A DNA stretch of 64,000 nucleotides. Source: Planctomycetaceae bacterium (GTDB lineage Bacteria > Planctomycetota > Planctomycetia > Planctomycetales > Planctomycetaceae). Positions 2,222 through 57,083 of the stretch are shown here, piece by piece; within the stretch, counting starts at the first letter, position 1; every line of letters begins with the position of its first letter. The translations under genes and the position numbers were made by a program. The stretch is from positions 1 to 64,000 of the forward strand of contig JAKFUG010000005.1 in NCBI GenBank assembly GCA_021732785.1, in the 5' to 3' direction. The notes beneath the pieces were generated by a model that did no database searches, had not been told where the DNA came from, and saw only the letters and a list, made by a program, of their open reading frames with translations.

Positions 2222-5200
2222 CTACTTCAACGTCTCCAGAAAATCCAGCAACTCCCCCAACTCTGCGCGCGTCATCCGTTGATGCAATCCCTGCGGCATC
2301 ACGGACACATTGGACGGCGTCCGTTCTTCGATCTCCTTCCGCGGGATCTTCGTCACGTTCCCCTGAATGTCGCCGAGTTCCACATCGCCGCCGCCGTTTT
2401 CGGTGACGATGATCCCGCTGTGTGTCTTGCCATCGACCGTGGAAATCGTCCACGTCAAAAACTGCGGCGAGATTTCTTTCGACGGTTCGAGAATCGAGCC
2501 GAGCAGTTTCTCGCGGTTCATCGTCCGGGCGATGACCGACAAATCCGGCCCAACGTTCCCGCCGCGGCCGTTGACCGTGTGGCATTTGAAGCACAGCGGG
2601 CCTTGGTGGTGGTAGAAGACGCGGCGACCATTGTCGGGGGAAGGTTGAGAGTTGAGGGTGGAGAGTTGAGAGTCGGAAGAAGACAAAGACGATTTGCCTT
2701 CGATGGCGAGATCGCACGCTTCCACCAGTTCCCGATCGTCGCTTGCCGCTTTGCGGATCCCCACGATCACATCCCCAATCTTCGACCCCGGCGTTGCCCG
2801 CCCTCGTAGCGCGCGAATGGCTTCGAGTTGACACTGTGCCGCATCCGTGGACGGGGCACGAAACCGCAAGCGGCCATTCACCGCGTCCAGTAGCAATTGT
2901 TCGACGTTCGCGGGCAACGGTTGATCGTGCGGCGTCGCGCACAGCCCGGCGATCGCGTCACACCGCAACGCCACATCGGCGTCGGGATTGGCGGCGATCT
3001 CCAGCAGCAGCGGCAGTGCTTCCGGTCGCGGGGACTGCTGCAACGTCCGCACCGCTTCGGTCTTCAGCCCGGCGTCCTCGGACTTCGCGAACCGCATCAG
3101 CAAGTCGGCGGACAACTCTTTGGTCGCCGCGGGAATCATCCGCAACGCCGTCGCCCGCAACGACGCCGGCCGCTGGTCATCCGTCACAATCTTCAACATC
3201 TGCTGTGTCGGCGGCGTCTTCTCAAACTCCGCGGGTGGCACGCCATCGAGAAGGGAGAGCGTCGCAAGACACGGCATCAATAAGTCAGGAGACAGCTTTT
3301 GGTCATTGAGCATCGTTTCAATTTGTGGGCGTAACTCAGTCAATTTCTCTTCACCAACCCATTGCACCGCAGCGCGGCGCAGCGGCTGTGAAGTGTGATA
3401 CAAACCCATCAAAGCAAGCTTTTCCGATTTTGGGAATTTGCGTCGCGCTGCGAGAAAATAAGCGATGTTATGGCGTGGTGTTCCCGCCCAAAAACGACAT
3501 TGTGCGTCCGAATCGGTCATCACAAAGTCAAACTTACCTTCATCCGTCAGGAATTCTCGCTCAAAGTCAGACTCATCGTAATCGCTCTCGGCGATTGCAG
3601 TGATCACACGACTGGCGATGAAAGGATCGTAAGCGCTCAGTGCAGCATTCCATAGAATTGACCATGCACCCTCGCGAGGTAGTTCTGCCGGATTGAGATA
3701 GTCCCGTAACGAAGTGAATTGACGATCCATTCCTTCCTCTATGATCGACTGAAAGATTTCGCCTAAGTCCGGATTTGCATCTTTCGGGCGCTGGCGAATC
3801 TGATCTGCAAAGAGGTATTGGTATGCCCAGAGCAACTCGACGCGGCGGCGTGAAGGTTCCATTCGACTATCGATCACATAGAGTAAAGAATAGATATCGG
3901 GTACCGCACGCACGAATGCTTGTGCCGCGATTCGACGAATCGGGAGATGCGGGTCGGATGTCAAATGGAGGAGCTTCCATGCCGGTGTTTTTTTATCAAA
4001 AGTGATTTCGTTGAAATCACTGTCCGAGAACCGATGGTGCAACGAATCATGAGCTGACAACCGCCAAATACGGCCTCTGCGGTGAAGTTTGTAGTCGCGG
4101 AGCACCCAGTCGCTGAAGTAGATGCTGCCGTCCGGGGCGAGGGCGAGGCCGACGGGGCGGAAGTTTTCGGTCCCTTGGACGATCGGTTTCGGCTTCGAGA
4201 CGAATGACGCCCCTTTCGGTTCCAGCACGAACTGGTCGATGCGGTGGTCGCCCCAGGTGCCGACGAGGAGCGTGCCGAGATAGTCCGCGGGGAAGCCGTC
4301 CGATTCGTAACAGAGAATGCCCGACGGGGCTTCGCCGGTGCCGGAGACCATCGGCAGCGTGCCGGGGATTTCGCCGTTCCACGCGGTGAAGGGGTGCGTG
4401 CCGCGGCGGCCGTTGCGGAAGCGGTAGCCGTAGTCGCCGCCGGGAATGATGTGCAGCAAGCGGCACGGCGGCCGGCTGTCGGGATCGTTGTCCACCGTGA
4501 AGAGGCGGCCGAAGGCGTCGAAGCAACTCGCGTGCGGATTCCAAAACCCGGTCGCCCACTTCTCCAGCTTCGAGCCATCCGGCCGACAACGATACATGTT
4601 CCCCCCTTCGCCGCCGCCGGAGAGCGTGACACCGTCGCTGCCGATGATTTTGTAATCCGCCCCGAGGTTTTCGCCGAAGCCGAAGTACATCCACCCGAGG
4701 GCATCAAACGCCAACCCCGCGAGCCCGTTGTGCGGATAATTGCCCGCGGTTTCGAGATGCACGAGTTGGATGCGTTCATCGGCGACGAGATCGTTGTTGG
4801 TATCACGCAGCCGCACGATCTCGCCGCGAGTGGCGACGAAGACGGGCTGAGAGCTAAGGGCTAAGGGCTGAGGGACAGACGGGGGGAGAGTCTTTTCTTC
4901 TTTCTGTCCCTTAGCCCTTAGCCCTAAACCCTCAGCCACCTCCAGCCATACCGGCTGCACCGCCACGCTCATCGCGAACTTAAAGCCGTCCGCAAAGACC
5001 GTCGTCTTGTCCGCTTTGCCATCGCCATCGGTGTCCTGCAGCACCAGCAATCGGTCCGACGGATGCCCCTGGTAACCGTCCGGCGGGAAGTGTGTGTTGC
5101 TTTCGAGCACCCACACACGGCCGAGGTGATCGACATCAATCCCCGTGGGCGTCACCAGCATCGGGTGCTCCGCAAACAGTTCCAGCTTCAACCGCTCATC

Positions 5201-24809: not shown

Positions 24810-27008
24810 ATGATTCCATCCACGCTCATGAATCTGGTCCGCCGCGGTTTTCGGAAACCGCCGCATGTGGTGGCGCGGCGAGTCGTGATGGAATTGCATC
24901 GCTCGTGGGAACGTGTGTCTGGCGGTCGACATAGCCAGATTAATGCGACTGCGTTGCTTCGAGGTACTCGTGCGTCTTCGGTAAACGATCTCTGGTCGAA
25001 ACTGCAATCGCGACCTTCGCTGACGTGGCTCGCATCGCCAACTGACCGCACGGCAATTAATGAACATTGCCCCGGCGATATCGACACCATTCTGCAAGCC
25101 GCGGAGCACGCGGTGGCTCATCGCGTTGATTTACTTGGCTCTGGACCGGTGTCACTCGGCGAACAAATTGACTGGCATCGTGACTACAAGACCGGGCACG
25201 TGTGGCCGGCAACTTTGGCCCACGATCTCGATTACGCCAATCTCGATCAACCTAGTGATGTGAAGTTCGCGTGGGATGTCTCACGGCTGCATTGGTTGCT
25301 GCCTGCGGCGCAGGCATACCAACTCACGCACGATGAATGCTATGCCATCGGGGCGCGGGCCGTGCTTGAACAGTGGATCGCAGCGAATCCGTGCGGGTTC
25401 GGTGTTAACTGGGCCTGCACGATGGAAGCCGCGTTGCGGATCTTCTCGTGGACGTATTTGTTCCATGCGTTTTCAAAGAGCGATGCCTGGCGTGACGAAG
25501 CCTTCCGTGCAGCATTCCTCGGCATGCTGTACGCCCACGGGCAATTCACCGAGCGTTACATCGAATACAGCGATGTGAACGGCAACCATTGCACCGCCGA
25601 TGCCGCGGCGTTGGTCGTCGCGGGATTGTTCTTCGACGACGGAACTGCACCGCAACGCTGGTTGCAATTCGGCTGGAAAACGCTGTGCGATGAACTGCCG
25701 AAGCAAATCTTCGCGGACGGCGTCGACTTCGAGGCGTCGGTTCCCTATCACCGCCTGGTGCTGGAACTGTTCCTGTTGCCCGCGGTTTATCGGCAGCGCT
25801 GCGGACTCGATGTCCCCGTGGATTATCGGGACCGCCTCCACGCGATGGCACGCTTCACCCAAGCGTATTCGCGACCCGATGGCAGCATCCCGTTCTGGGG
25901 TGACGCGGACGATGCCCGTGCGTTGCCGCTGGGAACGCAGGCACTGAACGATCATCGGTATTTGCTGCATCTGGTTGGCGCAACGCTGAACGATGCAGAA
26001 CTCGCAACGACGGCGTCTGGGTCGTTGAGTGAACTCTTCTGGTTGTGCGGACCGGATCGCACGAGCCACAGTAGCCCTGTCGTTCCGCGACAGGAAAGCC
26101 AATTCAGCACCGTTTCCCGTGATTTCTTATCCGCGCATGGCGAAACATCCGGCTTTCCTGTCGCGGAGCGACAGGGCTACGAAACAAACTCCGTCGCATT
26201 TCGTGATGGCGGATTCTTCGTCATGCGTAACGAGGACGATCACGTTTTCATCGACTGCGGGCCGGTGGGACTCGCCGGTCGCGGGGGGCATGGCCATAAC
26301 GATTGCCTTTCGTTCGACGCCATGCTCGCGGGAACGCACTGGATCTCCGATTGCGGGGCCTATGTCTACACGGCTTCTGCGAAAGACCGGCATCAGTTTC
26401 GGTCCACATCGTCCCATAACACACCCATCGTGCATGGTGAGGAATTGAACCGGTTCGTGAGTCGCACCGATTTGTGGCATCTGAAGAACGACGCAAAACC
26501 GGAACTTCGCCAGTGGGTGACCGGCCGCGATTACGACATCTTCGTCGGTTCGCACACCGGTTACGATCGCCTTATCGAACCGGTCCGACCGGTCCGAACG
26601 ATTGTGTTGGATCGTACCCGTCACGCGCTGTGGCTTCGCGATGATTTCGAGACCACGGCTCGGCGGGTCGACATCTGCACGCCGCTGCATCTGGCCCTCG
26701 GCGTCACGGTTGAAGAAACGACAGGCTCGTCGGTTGTTCTGCGGTCTGCGGATGAAGCCTCGACGATGGAACTGCATTGGGCCGCTAACGGTTGGCAACT
26801 CGAAGTCGGTGCGGGGCGCATTTCGCCCAGTTATGGGGTCGCGCACCCCTGCGTCCGTCTGATCTGGACGAATCGAGGCGGGGCAGCGACTCCGTTCACG
26901 TTGGGGCTAATTCCTCAGATCGCCGTCAATCACAACCTGCGGTTTACTCGCTGGTCGCGCGACATCGAAGCCGTACTGCATCCGTCCCCGTTGGCGAGGG
27001 CTGCGTGA
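24810..27008 (+). CDS. Heparinase II/III family polysaccharide lyase-like protein
   Basis: 732 residues, no signal peptide. The N-terminal all-alpha part (about 100-370) includes DVKFAWDVSRLHWLLPAA, IEYSDVNGNHCTADAAAL and IPFWGDADDARALP. The C-terminal beta-sandwich (about 460-720) includes FIDCGPVGLAGRGGHGHNDC and STSSHNTPIVHGEE, the conserved HGHND and SSHNT motifs of heparinase II/III. Such proteins in EPS clusters trim or degrade the polymer being exported. Residues about 420-457 come from an in-frame palindromic REP-like pair. ATG 24828 is an alternative start. The stop overlaps the next start by 1 base. Confidence 0.9.
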   Translation: MIPSTLMNLVRRGFRKPPHVVARRVVMELHRSWERVSGGRHSQINATALLRGTRASSVNDLWSKLQSRPSLTWLASPTDRTAINEHCPGDIDTILQAAEHAVAHRVDLLGSGPVSLGEQIDWHRDYKTGHVWPATLAHDLDYANLDQPSDVKFAWDVSRLHWLLPAAQAYQLTHDECYAIGARAVLEQWIAANPCGFGVNWACTMEAALRIFSWTYLFHAFSKSDAWRDEAFRAAFLGMLYAHGQFTERYIEYSDVNGNHCTADAAALVVAGLFFDDGTAPQRWLQFGWKTLCDELPKQIFADGVDFEASVPYHRLVLELFLLPAVYRQRCGLDVPVDYRDRLHAMARFTQAYSRPDGSIPFWGDADDARALPLGTQALNDHRYLLHLVGATLNDAELATTASGSLSELFWLCGPDRTSHSSPVVPRQESQFSTVSRDFLSAHGETSGFPVAERQGYETNSVAFRDGGFFVMRNEDDHVFIDCGPVGLAGRGGHGHNDCLSFDAMLAGTHWISDCGAYVYTASAKDRHQFRSTSSHNTPIVHGEELNRFVSRTDLWHLKNDAKPELRQWVTGRDYDIFVGSHTGYDRLIEPVRPVRTIVLDRTRHALWLRDDFETTARRVDICTPLHLALGVTVEETTGSSVVLRSADEASTMELHWAANGWQLEVGAGRISPSYGVAHPCVRLIWTNRGGAATPFTLGLIPQIAVNHNLRFTRWSRDIEAVLHPSPLARAA
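26071..26180. repeat. GTAG/CTAC REP-like inverted pair inside a coding region (class F)
   Basis: The unit 26071-26100 begins GTAGCCCTGTCG and is itself a hairpin (CTGTCG/CGACAG). Its inverted copy at 26151-26180 ends CGACAGGGCTAC. The spacer is 50 bases. The whole pair is read in frame in the heparinase-like gene. The 5' GTAG foot followed by an imperfect hairpin is the layout of REP elements in a BIME. Confidence 0.88.
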
Positions 27009-28273: not shown

Positions 28274-28290
28274 ATCATTTGTGACATCCG

Positions 28291-28380
28291 GTGTGCCACT
28301 GGCTCGGCCAGTGTCTTCATCGAATTATGAGTGACCTTAAAAACGGAAATACAAAGACACTGGCCGAGCCAGTGGCACAC
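28291..28380. repeat. REP-like inverted pair, class E copy 1
   Basis: The unit 28291-28316 (GTGTGCCACTGGCTCGGCCA then GTGTCT) contains the hairpin CACTGGC/GCCAGTG. Its exact inverted copy lies at 28355-28380. The spacer is 38 bases. It lies between the flippase and glycosyltransferase genes. Other copies: 39,613 and 56,168. Confidence 0.9.
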
Positions 28381-28440
28381 CGAACAACATGAAATCGGGC
28401 TGAAAGCTCGTCAGAAAACACTTTCGGAAAGGATTCCCAC

Positions 28441-36800: not shown

Positions 36801-37962
36801 GGAAGACCTGGGTATCATCCTCTCCCGCGCCGATTGGGCCAACGGCACGGTCTTTGAAGCCGTCGGCTTCGGCAACTGTCTGATGTCGCCGGTGCAGATC
36901 AGCGGTCGCCAGTTGCGCATCGTCTTCCAGCAGGCCGAGGGAGCCCCGTTGAAAATTCTCCCCAAGGATTCGGGAAAAGATGTCGAAGCCCTGATTCGTA
37001 TCGAAAAAGGTTCGATCGAGATTGAAGACCTGCGCTATCAACCGCCGGAACCGCGGTCGACCTTGCCCGCCTGGCTCCTCTCCGCGGTGGACTCGTACGT
37101 GATCTTCCGCGGGTGCGAGGTCGTTGGTCCGGATAAACTCACGGCCCCTTACCAGGGTGTCGTGAAGTTTTCCGCCGCGACCACTGCGCCCTCGCAGCCC
37201 CCCACCTTGTCGATCGTGCAATGCCTGATGCAGTCGCCGGGGACGATGTTCCGTGTGGAAGGGGGCGCAGCGGCGTTGTTCGTCAGAAACAGCGTCCTCG
37301 CCTCACGCGGAACATTACTCGATGTGCGACCGAAGGGGGTTCAGAATTCGTTGCCTGTCTCGATCGACATCGCGCAGTCATCGCTGTCGTCAACGGAAAC
37401 CGTGTTTCACCAATTGGTGACGCCGTTGCCCAATCCACCGGCGCAGAACGGCGTGCAGTACTTCGTGGAAAACTGCGTTTTCGGTCCGCCATTCTCTCTT
37501 CGCGCGGGTGACGCCAGTTCGCCGACGCTCATGACACTGTCGGGTTCCGTACGCGAACAGCAACAACTCGTCTGGTGGGGACAAGCCAACGGCGTCTCGC
37601 GCGAACTGCGTCCGTTGCTCAAAACCGTCAATCCCGATGCGCCCCCGGTGACGGATGCCGCGGCCTGGTCGGCACTCTGGGGAGACGGGCACGATCTGCA
37701 ATTGCTGGCGGTGGCCGATGGCATCATCCCTTTGGAGCCACTGCCCACGCGCCGCGAGAACCTGAAAGCCTCGTCGTATACGCTCCATCCGGCATGCAAA
37801 GCCATTACATGGGCAGAAGGGCGACCCATTGGTGCCGATGTGAAACTTCTCAGCGATGTCGGCCCGCGAAAGTCCACCCCGGAACCGGCCACGGCCAATA
37901 CGAAGAAGGCCACGCCCCCCGCCACGACAAAACCCGGCGTCTCCAAAACCGGCGGTTTCTAG
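33823..37962 (+). CDS. Transmembrane Ser/Thr protein kinase with beta-helix-like outer region
   Basis: 1379 residues, GTG start with a strong ribosome-binding site. Kinase domain: about 30-300, with G-loop GQGGMG (41-46), catalytic Lys in VALKVLPK (63), HRDIKPSN from residue 155, and DLG in place of DFG (common in planctomycete kinases). A disordered, charged linker (about 310-440) and one transmembrane helix (about 447-467) follow. The outer 900 residues contain short beta-strand repeats such as VIRDSVIACDAGIAF and VFRGCEV-like strings, the pattern of a right-handed parallel beta-helix. It may sense an extracellular or periplasmic ligand and phosphorylate cytoplasmic targets. The next gene follows 13 bases later. 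Confidence 0.9.
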   Translation: MTSQPAPKSSRPVDLDDEPVDAHAAADPKKIGKYDILRKLGQGGMGAVYLARDAALRREVALKVLPKDKAENPILVRRFQAEAQAAAKLRHDNIVAVHDSDTADGFCYIAMEFVDGKDLHEMVSRRGPIPVRRSIEIIKQVAMALQHAYEHQIVHRDIKPSNLLIRRDGVVKLTDLGLARSVDDSIETGITRAGTTVGTVDYMAPEQGRSSKAADIRSDLYSLGCTWYYMLTGQPPFPDGSLTNKLQAHAIKPPPDPRTLNQNVSDGMVAVIHQLMAKKPESRYQTPKELLDDLQTAALTRNAIAREIFDEPEEEAPTRGRTGKKAVLPDNELPVDAPSRPRSAAKKSRVEEEYEESAPAASKPRSSSKNDDVDIYTELTDDVPVRRTRTPASTDGDHEEPTEVGGNTSSPGKAPRPREAGAMPPPSRRTQPEEAAEEPAGVNLEGLKVIAVVAGIVLVVGGLGWLISSYSGQLLGFSPPPVRPLPNALANGAGGKPGVEVAPVGDAAAGNNAPVMDGSTPVAQIYGSGTTLGPDGNPLPVQPGTGSVGGVADGSSPPGQQTAVGPGGQFLPGAVTLEPEKIPQWSVAPAVQQRTTLTVGSGSTSGSHFNALSEALSRVSPEGALVQLTGEGPYILSTPVHLRTKRLVITAAPNAKPVIVFGNAGEGPPGSLRVTGGNLELSGIHISIDRQALKGTEPVKAISVVEGALTVRDCSATVSGTSAAPLSLLSLEGSAPGGARLLIDGTFIRGRPTAAIDIRCNVLDAVIRDSVIACDAGIAFRLAAASADNQTGKNLARAIRSLHSTWCSTQTVFDISGDGERESPLMTQFVLTESVCSAGSDQGPRVMLSADGWLQDPLRQSIVWTSKSSAYLGFDNLLDLGSKSAFRARTADDWRLFWQQKVDAEQFHADVWPAGVAKMSAVSAAQFDRDQLPGGVLKVATAGETIGTSTTKMIVPQSTHPSRLTALSTRRPLPNEAVQSTPAAKTRRVDMKKEDLGIILSRADWANGTVFEAVGFGNCLMSPVQISGRQLRIVFQQAEGAPLKILPKDSGKDVEALIRIEKGSIEIEDLRYQPPEPRSTLPAWLLSAVDSYVIFRGCEVVGPDKLTAPYQGVVKFSAATTAPSQPPTLSIVQCLMQSPGTMFRVEGGAAALFVRNSVLASRGTLLDVRPKGVQNSLPVSIDIAQSSLSSTETVFHQLVTPLPNPPAQNGVQYFVENCVFGPPFSLRAGDASSPTLMTLSGSVREQQQLVWWGQANGVSRELRPLLKTVNPDAPPVTDAAAWSALWGDGHDLQLLAVADGIIPLEPLPTRRENLKASSYTLHPACKAITWAEGRPIGADVKLLSDVGPRKSTPEPATANTKKATPPATTKPGVSKTGGF

Positions 37963-37975
37963 CGCCCCGCGGCTG

Positions 37976-38479
37976 ATGAATGCTGGGATTGGCATGGAGG
38001 AGACGGCGTATCATGAAGCCGGACATGCGTTGATGGCGGAAGCCGTCGGGGCGCGCGTGCGACAGGTCACGATCGAACCCGAAGCCGATGACGAACAACC
38101 GCGACACGGTGAAATCGAAGTCGCCTGGAAGCGGAGTCGCTGGACCGAGCGCGAGTATCATGAAAAGGCGATTCAGGTCGCGCTCGGCGGACCCATCGCC
38201 GAGATGCTCTACACCGGCGATCCGTATCACCCCGGTTTCGTCACCGCTTGGTCCGGCGATTGGCGTACCGCAATTGAACTGGCCGCGCCGTTGTTCCCGG
38301 ACATGCCGAAACGCATCGAATACCTCGAACTGGTGACACGGCGTTTATACCACTGGCTCAACGCCGAACCACAATGGTCTGCCGTCGCCGCTCTGGCGGA
38401 TGAGTTGCTCGCTCAGGAAACCCTTGAAGGCCCCGCCGTACGCGAAGTGCTGTCCGCATGGGGGATCATTCAAAAGTAG
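37976..38479 (+). CDS. Stand-alone FtsH peptidase (M41)-like protein
   Basis: 167 residues. YHEAGHALMAEAVGA at residues 12-26 is the HEXXH zinc site as it appears in the M41 peptidase domain of FtsH, followed by IQVALGGPIAEMLY, the region that helps form the active site. There is no ATPase domain and no membrane segment, so it is a free protease-like domain or a regulatory remnant. ATG 37994 is an alternative start. It follows the kinase gene by 13 bases, suggesting cotranscription. Its stop codon TAG is formed by the GTAG foot of a REP-like repeat. Confidence 0.75.
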   Translation: MNAGIGMEETAYHEAGHALMAEAVGARVRQVTIEPEADDEQPRHGEIEVAWKRSRWTEREYHEKAIQVALGGPIAEMLYTGDPYHPGFVTAWSGDWRTAIELAAPLFPDMPKRIEYLELVTRRLYHWLNAEPQWSAVAALADELLAQETLEGPAVREVLSAWGIIQK

Positions 38480-38604
38480 CCATCACGCTCCGCGTGATGA
38501 GCGGATGGTAAGTCAACTTTTGAATTGGCAGCGATCTGAACTGAACGTCGAAGCGAGGGGACGTTTTGAAGCGCGCCGCTCATCACGCGGAGCGTGATGG
38601 CTAC
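38476..38604. repeat. GTAG/CTAC REP-like inverted pair (class G)
   Basis: The unit 38476-38503 begins GTAGCCATCACGCTCCGCGT and forms the hairpin ATCACGC/GCGTGAT. Its inverted copy 38576-38604 ends GCGTGATGGCTAC. The bases outside the pair also mirror each other (CAAAAGTAG and CTACTTTG). The TAG within GTAG is the stop codon of the M41-like gene on the plus strand and of thiL on the minus strand. Confidence 0.92.
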
Positions 38605-39536
38605 TTTGAAGAGGCTGTCCACTCGTGAGTCCAACCCCACGGCGGGAGCGTGGCCGTGTTGCCGTCGGTTCCGCGAAGCAGCACGGTGCGATCCGCGGTG
38701 ATGTGACCGATGCGCGTCAGCGATGTCGTCATATCCCATACGGCGGCTAACCGCGAAGCTTCTTCCGATGACACCGCGAGAATCAACTCAAAGTCCTCAC
38801 CATCCCCGAGCGCATGTCGCAGCGCGGGCACATCGTCGGCCATCGCATGAGCATCGGGGTGAATCGGAATCGCACTGGCATCAATGATTGCGCCAACATG
38901 GCTTTCTTCGAGCAGGTGATGCAGATCGGCCGCAAGACCGTCGCTCACGTCGATCATCGCGTGCGGCGTGATCAATTCCAGTAACCGCCGGGCTTCACTC
39001 AATCGCGGTGTGAAATGGAGATGCCGACCGCGGATACTGCCGCCAAATGAGCCGGTCACCAGGATCACATCGCCCGGTTTCGCACCAGACCGCAGGATTG
39101 CCGCAGAACCCAGCGGTTCGCCGATGACCGTGATGTTGATGACGAACGGCCCGTCCCAACTGTTGGTGTCGCCTCCGGCGATCGTGACGTCATACTCGGC
39201 GGCGAGCGTTTCCAATCCGGCGTACACGTCGCGGGCAAACGCCTCACCACGCGATTGAGGAAATGCTACCGACACAAACGCGGCCGTCGGTTTTGCCCCC
39301 ATCGCGGCGATGTCGCTGAGATTCACCGCCAGCGCTTTGCGGCCCATTTCCCACGCCGACGTTTGCGGATAAAGAAAGTCGACCCCTTCCATCAGCATGT
39401 CGGTGGTGACGACTTCCCCGGCCGCACACGTGGAACGAATGACCGCGGCGTCATCGCCAATCCCCACCATCACCGGCGGCTTCACACCCGCCCGGCGGCG
39501 AATGTCGGCAATGAAATCGAACTCGGCACGGCCCAT
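38601..39536 (-). CDS. thiL: Thiamine-monophosphate kinase
   Basis: 311 residues. GIGDDAAVIR near residue 22, VTTDMLMEGVDF near 45, WEMGRKALAVNLSDIAAMGA near 65, and ISVSDGLAADL-like DVSDGLAADLHHLLEE near 205 are the metal- and ATP-binding motifs of ThiL. The enzyme phosphorylates thiamine monophosphate to thiamine pyrophosphate in the cytoplasm. The start at 39536 (MGRAEFDFIADI) matches the family; the frame is open 36 codons further upstream. Its stop TAG is part of the REP-like element shared with the convergent M41-like gene. Confidence 0.95.
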   Translation of the reverse strand: MGRAEFDFIADIRRRAGVKPPVMVGIGDDAAVIRSTCAAGEVVTTDMLMEGVDFLYPQTSAWEMGRKALAVNLSDIAAMGAKPTAAFVSVAFPQSRGEAFARDVYAGLETLAAEYDVTIAGGDTNSWDGPFVINITVIGEPLGSAAILRSGAKPGDVILVTGSFGGSIRGRHLHFTPRLSEARRLLELITPHAMIDVSDGLAADLHHLLEESHVGAIIDASAIPIHPDAHAMADDVPALRHALGDGEDFELILAVSSEEASRLAAVWDMTTSLTRIGHITADRTVLLRGTDGNTATLPPWGWTHEWTASSK

Positions 39537-39612
39537 ACGATTCCGTCTTAGCCCCCGGTCAATGCAACACTTTGCATGGGAGTATGCAAGTTCAATCTCA
39601 ACATAGCTTTCC

Positions 39613-39690
39613 TGTGTGCCACTGGCTCTGCCAGTGCGATTCATTGCAAGGACTTACGAAGAGAAGACACTGGCGGAGCCAGTGGCACAC
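39613..39690. repeat. REP-like inverted pair, class E copy 2
   Basis: The left unit 39613-39636 (TGTGTGCCACTGGCTCTGCC then AGTG) and right unit 39668-39690 (ending AGTGGCACAC) are inverted copies. The hairpin core is CACTGGC/GCCAGTG. It lies between thiL and the DUF1552 gene. Confidence 0.88.
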
Positions 39691-39761
39691 TTCAATCAAC
39701 TCCTAACATCCTATTGTTTAAGACTTTAATTGCCGCCATGCAATACGTTGATTGACGGGGA

Positions 39762-41105
39762 CTAAGACAATGACGTTAACGCGGTCAGATTGCCGGTCGC
39801 ATCGCTGAATTTGTCGACCGGGACACCCACCGCGCGAACTAGCGTTGTGAGCACATTCGCGAGTGGTGGCGGATTGGCATCGTACGCGAGATGTTGCCCG
39901 TGCTTCAGGCCGAGTTTCGCGCCCCCGGCGACCAATGTCGGTAGATTCTTCGGCGAATGTTCGCCCCCCGCGCCGGAGTTCATGCCGGAGCCGAACAGAA
40001 TCGCGGTGTGATCGAGCATCGTGCCGTCGCCTTCCTTCGTGTTCTTCAAAAACGTGAGCAGACGGCCGAGGCGTTCGAGGTGGAAGCGATCAATCTGCGC
40101 GAGCTTTTTCAGCATTCCTTCATCGCCGCCGTGGTGCGACAGTTCGTGGTGATTTTCACCACCACCACCGTAACCGCCTGCTTCGCGTGACCACTCGAAG
40201 GCAATGACCCGCGTGGTGTCGGTGAGCATCGCGAGGTAGGAAACTTCCAACATGACATCAAGCCACATCGGACGATCGTGGGCATTGCCGGGCTGGCTGC
40301 CGAGTTGCAGGTCTTTCTCGTCCACTTTCGGTTTCGGAATGTCGACCCACGACTCCATCCGGCCGACACGCTGCTCGGTCTCACGGACGGAATTCAGATA
40401 TTCATCGACCTTGCGGCGATCGTTCTGACCGAGTTTCTTTTGTAACGAATCGGCTTCGCTGCGCACGCTGTCGAGAATCGACTTGCGTTCGGCGTATCGT
40501 CGCAATGTCGCTTGACGGTCGGACGCACTTTCGGGAACGAACAGCCGCTCGAACAAACGTCGCGGCGAGTTTTCCGCGGGGAGTGGTGTCCCGCGGCCAT
40601 CGAAGGAAAGCGTGTGACTGTGCCCCGCCGCGCCGGTGCCCGATTGATCGGACAATTGCAGCGACGCGAACCGCGTCTGCTTGCCATGCACTTCGGCAAC
40701 GAGCTGATCGGCGGAAACTGTGTTCGTGTAATCGGCTCCGGGGACGGCTTTCAGATCGGCTCCCGTGAGCCAGGTGTCCGCGCCGCTGTGGCCCCCTTGC
40801 GAATGCGGATGCCCCAATCCCGAGAGGACCGTGAAGTCGCTGCGGTGCGGTTTCAGCACTTCGAGTGTGGGTGACAGCGTGTAATCCGGCCCGCTGTCTT
40901 TCGGGACCCATTCGAGAATGTTGACGCCGTTCGGAATGTAGCAGCACAACAAGCGCGGATGGACGCCGGTCGATTTTTCAAGCGGCTGAAACTGCGACGG
41001 GGCCGTCCAGCCGCGCGGCACCATCGCCTCCAATAAGGGAAGCGAAATCGCCGCCCCGAGGCCGCGCAGCACATGCCGCCGTGATAACCGATTGAGCGCA
41101 TCCAT
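39762..41105 (-). CDS. DUF1552 domain-containing exported protein
   Basis: 447 residues. A Tat-like leader (SRRHVLRGLGAAISLPLLEA) suggests export after folding. The body matches DUF1552: LLCCYIPNGVNILEWVPK near residue 53, SGLGHPHSQGGHSGADTWLT near 95, REAGGYGGGGENHHELSHHG near 315, and LFGSGMNSGAGGEHSPKNLP near 372. DUF1552 is related to DUF1501 and usually occurs with PSD/DUF1592-type cytochrome proteins, but none is adjacent here. The function is unknown. Confidence 0.93.
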   Translation of the reverse strand: MDALNRLSRRHVLRGLGAAISLPLLEAMVPRGWTAPSQFQPLEKSTGVHPRLLCCYIPNGVNILEWVPKDSGPDYTLSPTLEVLKPHRSDFTVLSGLGHPHSQGGHSGADTWLTGADLKAVPGADYTNTVSADQLVAEVHGKQTRFASLQLSDQSGTGAAGHSHTLSFDGRGTPLPAENSPRRLFERLFVPESASDRQATLRRYAERKSILDSVRSEADSLQKKLGQNDRRKVDEYLNSVRETEQRVGRMESWVDIPKPKVDEKDLQLGSQPGNAHDRPMWLDVMLEVSYLAMLTDTTRVIAFEWSREAGGYGGGGENHHELSHHGGDEGMLKKLAQIDRFHLERLGRLLTFLKNTKEGDGTMLDHTAILFGSGMNSGAGGEHSPKNLPTLVAGGAKLGLKHGQHLAYDANPPPLANVLTTLVRAVGVPVDKFSDATGNLTALTSLS

Positions 41106-43990: not shown

Positions 43991-44569
43991 ATGGAAATTG
44001 TTCTCTACCCGCACCCGGCACTTCGCTGGAAGTCCCGGCCGATTACGGAAATTGACGCGAACCTGCGGAAAACCGTCGCCGAGATGTTCGAGTTGATGTA
44101 CGCCGCCAAAGGGATCGGCCTCGCGGCGAATCAGGTGGCGTTGCCCTACCGGTTGTTCGTCCTGAATCTCACGGGCGATCCCGCAGAAAAGGAAGAAGAA
44201 ATTGTCTTCCTCAACCCGGAAATCCTGAAGCGGAAAGGGACCACCGAAGGCGAAGAAGGTTGCCTGAGCTTTCCCGGTCTCTACAAAGATGTGAAGCGGG
44301 CCGCGGAAGTGACCGTCGAGGCATTCGATCTTACCGGCAATGGTTTCGAGTATTCGCTGGACGAACTCGCCGCCCGCGCGGTCCAGCATGAATACGATCA
44401 CATTGAAGGCATCCTCTTCATTGACCGAATTACCGAGACCCTGAAGCGGGAATGCCAGCCGGTGCTCGAAGACTTCGAGGCGCAATACCGTCGACGTCAA
44501 ACCGAAGGCAAACTGCCGTCCGATGACGCGCTGAAGCAAGAGCTCGCGCGCCTCGCCGCGGGCTCCTGA
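43991..44569 (+). CDS. def: Peptide deformylase
   Basis: 192 residues. The three PDF motifs are present: GIGLAANQV near residue 40, EGCLSFPG near 89 (with the metal-binding Cys) and QHEYDHIEG near 133 (HEXXH type). It removes the formyl group from nascent N-terminal methionine at the ribosome. The start MEIVLYPHPALR fits the family; the frame is open upstream through the repeat but without homology. It is followed by fmt, the classical neighbour. The stop codon TGA lies at the tip of a palindromic repeat that separates def and fmt. Confidence 0.96.
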   Translation: MEIVLYPHPALRWKSRPITEIDANLRKTVAEMFELMYAAKGIGLAANQVALPYRLFVLNLTGDPAEKEEEIVFLNPEILKRKGTTEGEEGCLSFPGLYKDVKRAAEVTVEAFDLTGNGFEYSLDELAARAVQHEYDHIEGILFIDRITETLKRECQPVLEDFEAQYRRRQTEGKLPSDDALKQELARLAAGS

Positions 44570-44631
44570 GCGGCACGGCGCTAGCCGCCGGTGAATTGCA
44601 ACCAAACCGGCGGCTAGCGCCGTGCCGCTCA
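44567..44631. repeat. REP-like palindrome between def and fmt (class H)
   Basis: The left arm 44567-44592 (TGAGCGGCACGGCGCTAGCC then GCCGGT) is a perfect complement of 44606-44631, around a 13-base loop. The first three bases are the def stop codon. The element fills almost the entire def-fmt gap. Confidence 0.9.
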
Positions 44632-44651
44632 GAATGACGAAGAAACCTTTC

Positions 44652-55847: not shown

Positions 55848-57083
55848 ATGGACGAGCAATTCGCGATCGATGTCCTATCCGGCCGCCGCCGCGGGATGAT
55901 ACCCACGGCGTTGCGGGCCGTGTGCCGTGCCGCATCGTGGGGTTACGCCGCCGCGATGACCGTGCGGAACGCCGGTTACGATTATGGCTGGTTGAAAACG
56001 CATCGCATCGACTGCCCGGTGATCAGCATCGGCAACATCACCACCGGCGGCACCGGCAAAACGCCACTCGTCGCATGGTTCGCCCAGCGATTGCAGCACG
56101 CGGGATATCGTCCGGGCATTCTGAGCCGCGGATACCGCAGTCTTCACTCAGCAACTTCGCCCTCTCCGTGTGCCACTGGCTCTGCCAGTGTCTTTCCGAT
56201 GGTGCAGAGCGATTGCCCAGACAAACAGAAGACACTGGCAGAGCCAGTGGCACACAACGGGGCGAACGACGAAGCGCTGGTGCTGGAACGGTTGTGTCCC
56301 GGTGTGCCGCAGGTGGCGATGCGCGACCGTGTTGCCGGTGCGGACATCGCGATCCAACAGCGTGGCTGTGATGCGCTGGTGCTCGATGACGGCTTCCAGC
56401 ACCGACGGCTCGCGCGCGACCTGGATGTCGTGCTCATCGACGCGCTGCAACCGTGGGGATATGGGCATCTGCTGCCGCGCGGGTTGTTGCGCGAACCGTT
56501 GTCGGCGTTGAAACGGGCGGACGTGGTGATCATCACGCGGGCCGATCAGATCGCACCCGACATGCTGCACGAACTGCGAACACACATCGCGCGTGTCCGT
56601 GGCGTCGACGAACACATCGCCGTGCGGTTTGCACCGAAACGGTTGATCAACGCGCTGGGTGACACGCAGCACCCCGGCTGCTTCTTCGCAGCCGGGGTGC
56701 TTTCTTCCAACAGCGCGGCGACGGAAATCGAGCATCCCGGCTGCCAGGAAGCCGGGATGCGTGCGTTCTGCGGCATCGGCAACCCGGATGGTTTCCGCCG
56801 CACACTGCTTGATCTCGGCATTACCGGTGAACTAAAGACGTTTCCCGATCATCACCACTACACGCGGGCCGATCTCGATGCGATTGGCGAGTGGGGAGCC
56901 ACACGATCCGTCACCGAGTTCGCGACAACGCTGAAGGATCTCGTGAAGATTCCGACGGATCACCCACTCGCATCGCACATCTGGGCGGTGGAGATTGTGC
57001 CGGAGTTTGTCGCGGGGGAGCAGATTCTGCTTGAACGGCTCTACAGGTTTGTGCCAAGATTAATGCCATCTGTGGCTGCGTGA
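55848..57083 (+). CDS. lpxK: Tetraacyldisaccharide 4'-kinase
   Basis: 411 residues, longer than usual LpxK (about 325-350). The N-terminal membrane-binding helix is followed by ISIGNITTGGTGKTPLVAW (Walker A type P-loop) near residue 63, DALVLDDGFQHRRLARDLDV near 180, and FCGIGNPDGFRRTLLDLGI near 305, then HHYTRADLDAIG. It phosphorylates the lipid A precursor. The excess length is explained by two translated repeats: residues about 107-136 from a class E pair and about 274-304 from a second hairpin pair. ATG 55848 starts just after the upstream palindrome. Confidence 0.93.
   Translation: MDEQFAIDVLSGRRRGMIPTALRAVCRAASWGYAAAMTVRNAGYDYGWLKTHRIDCPVISIGNITTGGTGKTPLVAWFAQRLQHAGYRPGILSRGYRSLHSATSPSPCATGSASVFPMVQSDCPDKQKTLAEPVAHNGANDEALVLERLCPGVPQVAMRDRVAGADIAIQQRGCDALVLDDGFQHRRLARDLDVVLIDALQPWGYGHLLPRGLLREPLSALKRADVVIITRADQIAPDMLHELRTHIARVRGVDEHIAVRFAPKRLINALGDTQHPGCFFAAGVLSSNSAATEIEHPGCQEAGMRAFCGIGNPDGFRRTLLDLGITGELKTFPDHHHYTRADLDAIGEWGATRSVTEFATTLKDLVKIPTDHPLASHIWAVEIVPEFVAGEQILLERLYRFVPRLMPSVAA
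56168..56255. repeat. REP-like inverted pair inside lpxK, class E copy 3
   Basis: The left unit 56168-56193 (GTGTGCCACTGGCTCTGCCA then GTGTCT) and its exact inverted copy 56230-56255 are translated in frame after GILSRGYRSLH. The 36-base spacer differs from the other two copies. Confidence 0.92.
56669..56760. repeat. Second inverted hairpin pair inside lpxK (class I)
   Basis: The hairpin 56669-56700 (GCACCCCGGCTGC with GCAGCCGGGGTGC) and an inverted, diverged hairpin 56732-56760 (GCATCCCGGCTGCC with GCCGGGATGC) are both read in frame. They encode HPGCFFAAGV and HPGCQEAGM, immediately before the conserved FCGIGNP motif. Confidence 0.85.

Follow-up and report, generated by a model that had tools for sequence, protein, structure and literature searches.

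A GTAG-type REP doublet supplies the stop codons of two convergent genes in a Planctomycetaceae genome

A pair of inverted palindromic repeats lying between two convergent genes supplies the TAG stop codon of both, one from each of its outward-facing GTAG feet. The pair was found in a Planctomycetaceae genome (GenBank assembly GCA_021732785.1, here G000; 6.69 Mb in 96 contigs), in the first 64,000 nucleotides of contig JAKFUG010000005.1, the whole of which is referred to as the window. Judged against an orthologous locus that lacks the element, both native stops appear to have been replaced, giving the two proteins new last residues at no loss of length. Insertion of a REP doublet into the 3' ends of both genes, together with survival of such insertions where the reading frame closes, very probably explains the double stop.

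The element and the two genes it closes

The element (Table 1) is an inverted repeat at 38473-38607 with arms of 32 nt (38473-38504 and 38576-38607) that are 100% complementary and 71 nt apart. Each arm contains the 24-mer GTAGCCATCACGCTCCGCGTGATG with its foot facing outwards, and each unit consists of an 8-bp stem, a 3-nt loop and a GTAG foot (at 38476 and 38604). The preliminary description had assigned the TAG of the M41-like gene to the left foot, GTAG at 38476-38479 on the forward strand, and that of thiL to the right foot, read as CTAC at 38601-38604. The open reading frames do end there, at 38479 and 38601, respectively. Its observation that AAG TAG is mirrored at the two gene ends was also borne out by the sequence, the codon before both stops being AAG (Lys).

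Table 1. Coordinates of the element, its parts and the flanking genes in the window
Feature	Position	Strand	Basis or remark
Feet-out REP pair (REPIN-like), AAAGTAG at both ends	38473..38607	.	32-bp inverted repeat, absent in G002
Left REP unit, GTAGCCATCACGCTCCGCGTGATG	38476..38499	+	among 76 genome units
Right REP unit, 24-mer GTAGCCATCACGCTCCGCGTGATG	38581..38604	-	repeat search
Interior of REP pair, 71 nt	38505..38575	.	
TAG stop of M41-like gene, from left foot	38477..38479	+	G002 orthologue one codon shorter
TAG stop of thiL, from right foot	38601..38603	-	G002 orthologue: TGA, other residues
M41-like metallopeptidase-domain gene	37856..38479	+	PF01434
thiL, thiamine-phosphate kinase	38601..39644	-	TIGR01379

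The forward ORF matched Peptidase_M41 with a value of 2.8e-08. Relatives mostly matched the M41-like query, which was started at 37940, from about residue 12-20, and the true start of the gene is probably at 37976 or 37994. The convergent ORF scored 271.9 bits against the thiL model (cut-off 184.15) with the best stretch from ORF residue 41, and its true start is probably near 39536. A thiL gene was present in all 59 genomes searched, G000 included. A further palindrome family (GTGTGCCACTGGC...CCAGTG) forms inverted pairs in the window at 39614-39690, 28289-28382 and 56168-56255, the first of these overlapping the start of the thiL ORF, and a perfect 27-bp inverted repeat of a different kind, with 13 nt between its arms, lies at 44566-44632.

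As RNA, the whole element is predicted to form one hairpin (-80.4 kcal/mol, z -10.44), and a stem starts 1-2 nt past each TAG. The element could have been retained for this reason, as a cap whose hairpin tunes or ends expression of the convergent genes by ribosome stalling or bidirectional termination; REPs of Escherichia coli no more than 15 nt from a stop are reported to stall ribosomes (cited in PMC12306157). Speaking against this, a terminator scan returned one terminator-like site, on one strand, where shuffled sequences gave a mean of 0.5, a search of 37500-39800 against Rfam gave no match at gathering score and no known structured RNA, and the corresponding site in a relative is empty although both genes are present. 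A translational or transcriptional role of the predicted fold is possible and an intrinsic terminator would be weak at best, while retention of the element as a gene-end cap seems rather unlikely.

The locus without the element and other gene ends

The closest relative at the locus, a genome of the same genus (G002, 64% complete) whose locus aligns as record JAKFWC010000023.1 does, carries both genes in convergent orientation without the element. The alignment anchors are 9 bp apart in it, and DNA identity is about 81%. There, the M41 and thiL coding regions overlap tail to tail by 11 nt. The M41 protein ends in ...LSDLGIIP (TAG) in G002 and in ...LSAWGIIQK (TAG) in G000, a gain of one residue, and ThiL ends in ...WGWTHEWAPPTE (TGA) in G002 and in ...WGWTHEWTASSK (TAG) in G000, with no change in length and with the last residues EWAPPTE and EWTASSK, respectively. 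Since both ends differ from those in G002, the element appears to have rewritten both C-termini, which agrees with the earlier proposal that it defines them. The G002 genome contains no unit of the palindrome, and the state of its locus was taken to be the older one because the repeat is missing from it. The empty site is that of a single genome, and at about 80% identity neither exact junctions nor target-site duplications are readable, so that the junctions and the polarity of the change are not proven.

Similar comparisons could be made at other copies of the repeat. Six feet of the family in G000 supply a TAG, and all six orthologous ends in G002 have another stop codon or another position, namely TGA in four, TAA in one and CCGTAG in the M41 gene. 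Apart from the two genes described above, these are L056+, L061+ and L079-, where the relative has TGA and the G000 protein is 5, 0 and 3 residues longer, respectively, and L051-, where the relative has TAA and two residues were gained. At four further ends, the AAA that precedes the foot completes a stop codon at the native position. This is TAA at L056- (TGA in the relative) and L069+ (TAA in the relative), and TGA at L076- and L060+ (TGA in both relatives, that of L060+ being G001). The stop position was also kept at L051+, where the TAG is not derived from the foot and the relative has TGA. L066- (around 4109-4130) has a GTCG foot, and the gene continues for six codons until it meets a TGA within the stem, ending six residues beyond its G002 counterpart.

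None of the 12 gene ends compared, the M41 and thiL ends included, was shorter than that of the relative. The preliminary description had considered that the insertion might have trimmed both genes, in which case the native C-termini would be expected to extend further in orthologues. With tail lengths measured from the end of the local alignment, 24 of the 25 M41 orthologues examined had a shorter tail and one an equal tail, a count that left out L111-L119 (the nine weakest) and L153 (the same as locus L091). Among 29 ThiL orthologues, drawn from 29 of the 58 other genomes, 27 tails were shorter, one was equal and one was longer. In both comparisons, some named and unnamed loci may stem from one and the same genome. 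The G000 tails are therefore at least as long as those in 25/25 and 28/29 orthologues, respectively. The two tails are not conserved, and no trimming was seen. With nothing found in its favour, shortening of both genes is hardly credible and was rejected.

Stop codons at element ends across the repeat family

The 24-mer was found 76 times in G000 (allowing up to 3 mismatches), dispersed over many contigs, while a reversed control pattern was not found at all, so that its status as a repeat is not due to chance. The copies were sampled as 43 stretches, two of which are cut by contig ends. They occur in two arrangements, feet-out (14 pairs) and feet-in with a 3-4-nt spacer. The stretch 38562-38604, which takes in the end of the interior and the right unit, matches many other copies, and sequence similar to the interior of the pair was found outside feet-in copies. 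Eight of the 59 genomes searched, G000 included, contain any unit of the 24-mer, and the nearest named relatives at the locus are Planctomycetaceae, Planctomycetota and Schlesneria metagenome-assembled genomes. A sister palindrome is present in 103 units (up to 3 mismatches, whole genome) in a further genome, G012, where a sample of 40 stretches, two of them cut by contig ends, contained 31 feet-out pairs. A second GTAG family (GTAGCCCTGTCG...), with 125 units in G000, was sampled at 30 loci, L016 and the window, counting duplicate contexts once.

Several other configurations were observed. In the feet-in copies (L047, L050, L052 and others) the palindrome is inside-out and one foot is usually GTGG. 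One of these (L050, within L256, G000:C2:249367-249595) is nested in the loop of a second-family feet-out pair, both feet of which supply a TAG, making one more strict double capture. At L087 (around 3940-3960), by eye, a gene stop TAA falls on what appears to be a truncated foot of older date (TAAAGTCGCCATCACC), and a newer element follows immediately. Different inverted palindrome pairs were also seen by eye in G002 (L159, L171 and L175) at three sites, on the same gene ends that carry the 24-mer repeat in G000.

Outside the feet-in arrangement, the foot is immediately preceded by the triplet AAA in 25 of 29 cases in G000 and in 50 of 73 in G012. The base before this triplet is C in 17/29 and T in 7/29 in G000 (C or T, 24/29), and in G012 it is C in 47/73 and C or T in 64/73. 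The element end is thus mostly (C/T)|AAAGTAG. As the AAA is conserved at the element end, the mirrored lysine codon is element sequence and not a feature shared by the two genes. The suggestion that AAGTAG is a preferred target was rejected, as the AAA is part of the element itself and no AAGTAG is present at the sites compared in relatives.

The position of each stop was recorded as the offset of its last base from the G of the foot. Genes were taken from a home-made codon-score caller, the picks of which shift slightly with the settings (10 or 9 foot-TAG stops in the second family), and the element copies are not independent. L054 (an unpaired palindrome inside a gene, its foot being GTCG) and L073 (a 3-mismatch unit in a called gene) were omitted from the G000 offsets, and their sources were included in the pile-up and strict tests and in the frame recount. 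A codirectional stop was found within -40 to +6 at 20 of the 30 feet-out or single feet in G000. Six of the 30 were at +3 (the foot TAG), two at -2 and three at -3. The 73 feet of the 40 G012 stretches had 14 stops at +3, nine at -2, three at 0 and one each at -1 and -3, and the 47 second-family feet had 9-10 at +3 and three at -3. When G000 and G012 were combined, 39 of the 62 stops within -40 to +6 were located on the seven heptamer positions out of 47 (uniform-null P 9e-18). None of 52 feet-in feet had a codirectional stop nearby, a contrast to the 20/30 that is partly built in because feet-in feet sit behind a partner unit; with distances taken from the outside of the pair, the closest codirectional stop among 29 gaps was at 37 nt.

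A strict frame test required at least 50 open codons and a codon score above 8, thresholds that cause some ends to be missed, including that of thiL (38601-39644). In this test 28 coding frames reached an element end and 26 ended inside it, the exceptions being L066- and L054+, both with GTCG feet. The tabulation of feet whose TAG serves as a stop codon, proposed in the preliminary description, was obtained from a frame recount, in which the foot TAG closes a gene at 6/33 feet in this family, 14/73 in G012 and 9/47 in the second family. Over the three sets, 29 genes are closed in this way versus six that read the foot out of frame, four at an intact GTAG (L181-, L260+, which is open at the stretch end, L263+ and L276+) and two at a variant foot (L054+, GTCG; L206-, GTAA). 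L054 lies inside a 1017-aa ORF and is an exception to the location at 3' ends. L276+ is the second-family pair at 26071-26180 in the window, inside an ORF at 24810-27008 (+, 732 aa) whose frame avoids the TAG. Blind insertion would place one third of feet in frame, and the observed 29/35 has a naive P of 2e-9, or 1e-10 for intact feet only (29/33), with the feet treated as independent in both cases.

These figures bear on whether the element simply landed behind pre-existing stops, with both TAGs being coincidental. Such landings do occur, as at L049+ and L079+, where the foot lies 16 and 26 nt away from the stop, respectively, and both genomes have the native TGA, and the M41 gene of G002 also ends in TAG, one codon earlier. 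Chance landing had been expected to leave the same final residues in orthologues that lack the element. This is not so for the G002 orthologues, the last residues of both genes diverging past the junction, and the AAGTAG is element sequence. Given the pile-up of stops (P 9e-18) and the frame bias (29 vs 6), both beyond chance, this explanation is very improbable and was rejected.

The preferred explanation begins with a non-autonomous REP doublet (REPIN type, GTAG superfamily) belonging to a family spread by a RAYT/TnpA-REP enzyme (Y1 HUH). The doublet would have inserted where the 3' ends of the M41-like gene and thiL abut. With ends that read, from the outside inwards, (C or T)|AAAGTAG, a gene entering in one of three frames would be closed at once by AAG-TAG, and the AAA would yield TAA after T and TGA after TG. 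Insertions at gene ends would persist if the element end closes the frame within a few codons, as both ends do here. We infer that the G002 state is the older one, that the element was mobilized by a RAYT and that the pattern is mainly due to survival under purifying selection. Strict double capture was found in one of 14 feet-out pairs in G000 and one of 31 in G012, where 0.45 and 0.98 are expected if the feet are independent. The counts match the expectation for two independent captures in both genomes, and the idea that double capture is a special event was rejected.

The transposase may also be aimed at gene ends, favouring either stop codons or sequence in which purine-A comes after a pyrimidine (T|AA, T|GA or C|A). 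An offset of -2 was seen twice in G000 and nine times in G012, versus 0.24 and 0.38 expected from the zone 4-40 nt downstream, and -3 was seen three times in G000 versus 0.24. Of the five such G000 ends, four could be compared with a relative (L056-, L069+, L076- and L060+) and all four keep the native stop residue, and the predominance of C or T before the end triplet in both genomes points the same way. As the excess over downstream-zone density at -2 (both genomes) and -3 (G000) would not be expected from survival alone, an insertion preference at stop codons is possible as an added factor. However, -3 shows no excess in G012 (1 vs 0.38, P 0.3), feet-in copies keep away from stops, no codirectional stop lies within -40 to +6 at 10 of the 30 feet-out or single feet, and the short length of convergent gaps may by itself lower the density of the downstream zone. 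Aiming at gene ends is therefore conceivable but somewhat doubtful as the explanation. Of the earlier idea of an insertion preference, the AAGTAG target did not stand, and the weaker form, a preference for stop codons or a pyrimidine-A step, is possible. A stronger version is distinctly improbable. In it, the conserved end (C/T)|AAAGTAG would be an adaptation, a stop cartridge that tolerates different frames, and the enzyme would prefer stop codons, so that the elements would be specialised for landing in gene ends, even overlapping ones, and would rewrite both C-termini with the proteins continuing to work.

Relation to known repeat systems

A possible link to a mobilizing enzyme comes from other loci. 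In one genome (G016, L231), a RAYT (Y1_Tnp) gene has pairs of the G000 palindrome on both sides, as in the REPtrons of RAYT/TnpA-REP genes described in PMC2817692 and PMC8266576. A RAYT 57% identical to it is found in G000 (L016), flanked by the second GTAG family, and the stop codon of this gene is itself a second-family foot TAG. The difference from those descriptions is that no RAYT flanked by the palindrome was found in G000 among the eight of nine Y1_Tnp matches checked (1.5 kb on each side). In G012, which is 79% complete and has the 103 units of the sister palindrome, no Y1_Tnp match was found. One TnpA-REP cleaves CA sites, with GTAG assisting in their choice (PMC8266576), and the C|A at the element end fits, by analogy, the cleavage described there for that enzyme.

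The doublet resembles REPINs (Bertels and Rainey 2011, PMC3116915) as described there in being an inverted REP doublet with an interior spacer and a predicted hairpin, and the two inverted REPs recur as one unit (14 pairs in G000 and 31 in G012). It differs in that it is known here from sequence and an empty orthologous site, and in that the palindrome also occurs feet-in, with its 3-4-nt spacer, away from stops. Members of the IS200/IS605 group have their own transposase gene, for which the element at 38473-38607, with 135 bp, is too short. A 2015 study by Liang et al. is reported to concern REPs of E. coli that lie no more than 15 nt from a stop codon. The stop-proximal REPs of E. coli, as cited in PMC12306157, likewise have a hairpin directly behind the stop codon, and differ from the G000 case, where the repeat itself makes the stop codon.

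The locus provides a worked example, with an empty site, of a mobile repeat replacing the stops of two genes at once with neither shortened. With the 29 vs 6 pattern, mere tolerance of such repeats at gene ends and targeting to those ends become alternatives that can be tested. The case is also a warning that, in such genomes, a number of proteins have last residues derived from a repeat.

In the literature searched, nothing was judged closer than the GTAG REP superfamily (Di Nocera et al. 2013, PMC3733652), which is not a claim of absence elsewhere in print. That paper describes GTAG repeats in the PVC superphylum, states that the GTAG termini of REPs often supply a TAG stop to flanking ORFs and reports that, in two species, REPs lying between convergent ORFs are mostly no more than 20 bp from both 3' ends. 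The shared features are a GTAG foot, a short palindrome, many copies and inverted pairs near convergent 3' ends. The repeat in G000 is a GTAG-tagged palindrome within the size range of the class (about 20-40 bp), in dispersed high copy, mostly non-genic and near 3' ends; its likeness to the 24 GTAG families of that paper is one of description. The section of that paper on stops gives neither an empty-site comparison nor frame statistics, both of which are given here. The double-stop element exemplifies behaviour already described there for the GTAG REP class, and what is added to that section is the comparison with an empty site, the frame bias, the part played by the AAA triplet, a case of read-through at a GTCG foot and hints of insertion exactly at stop codons.
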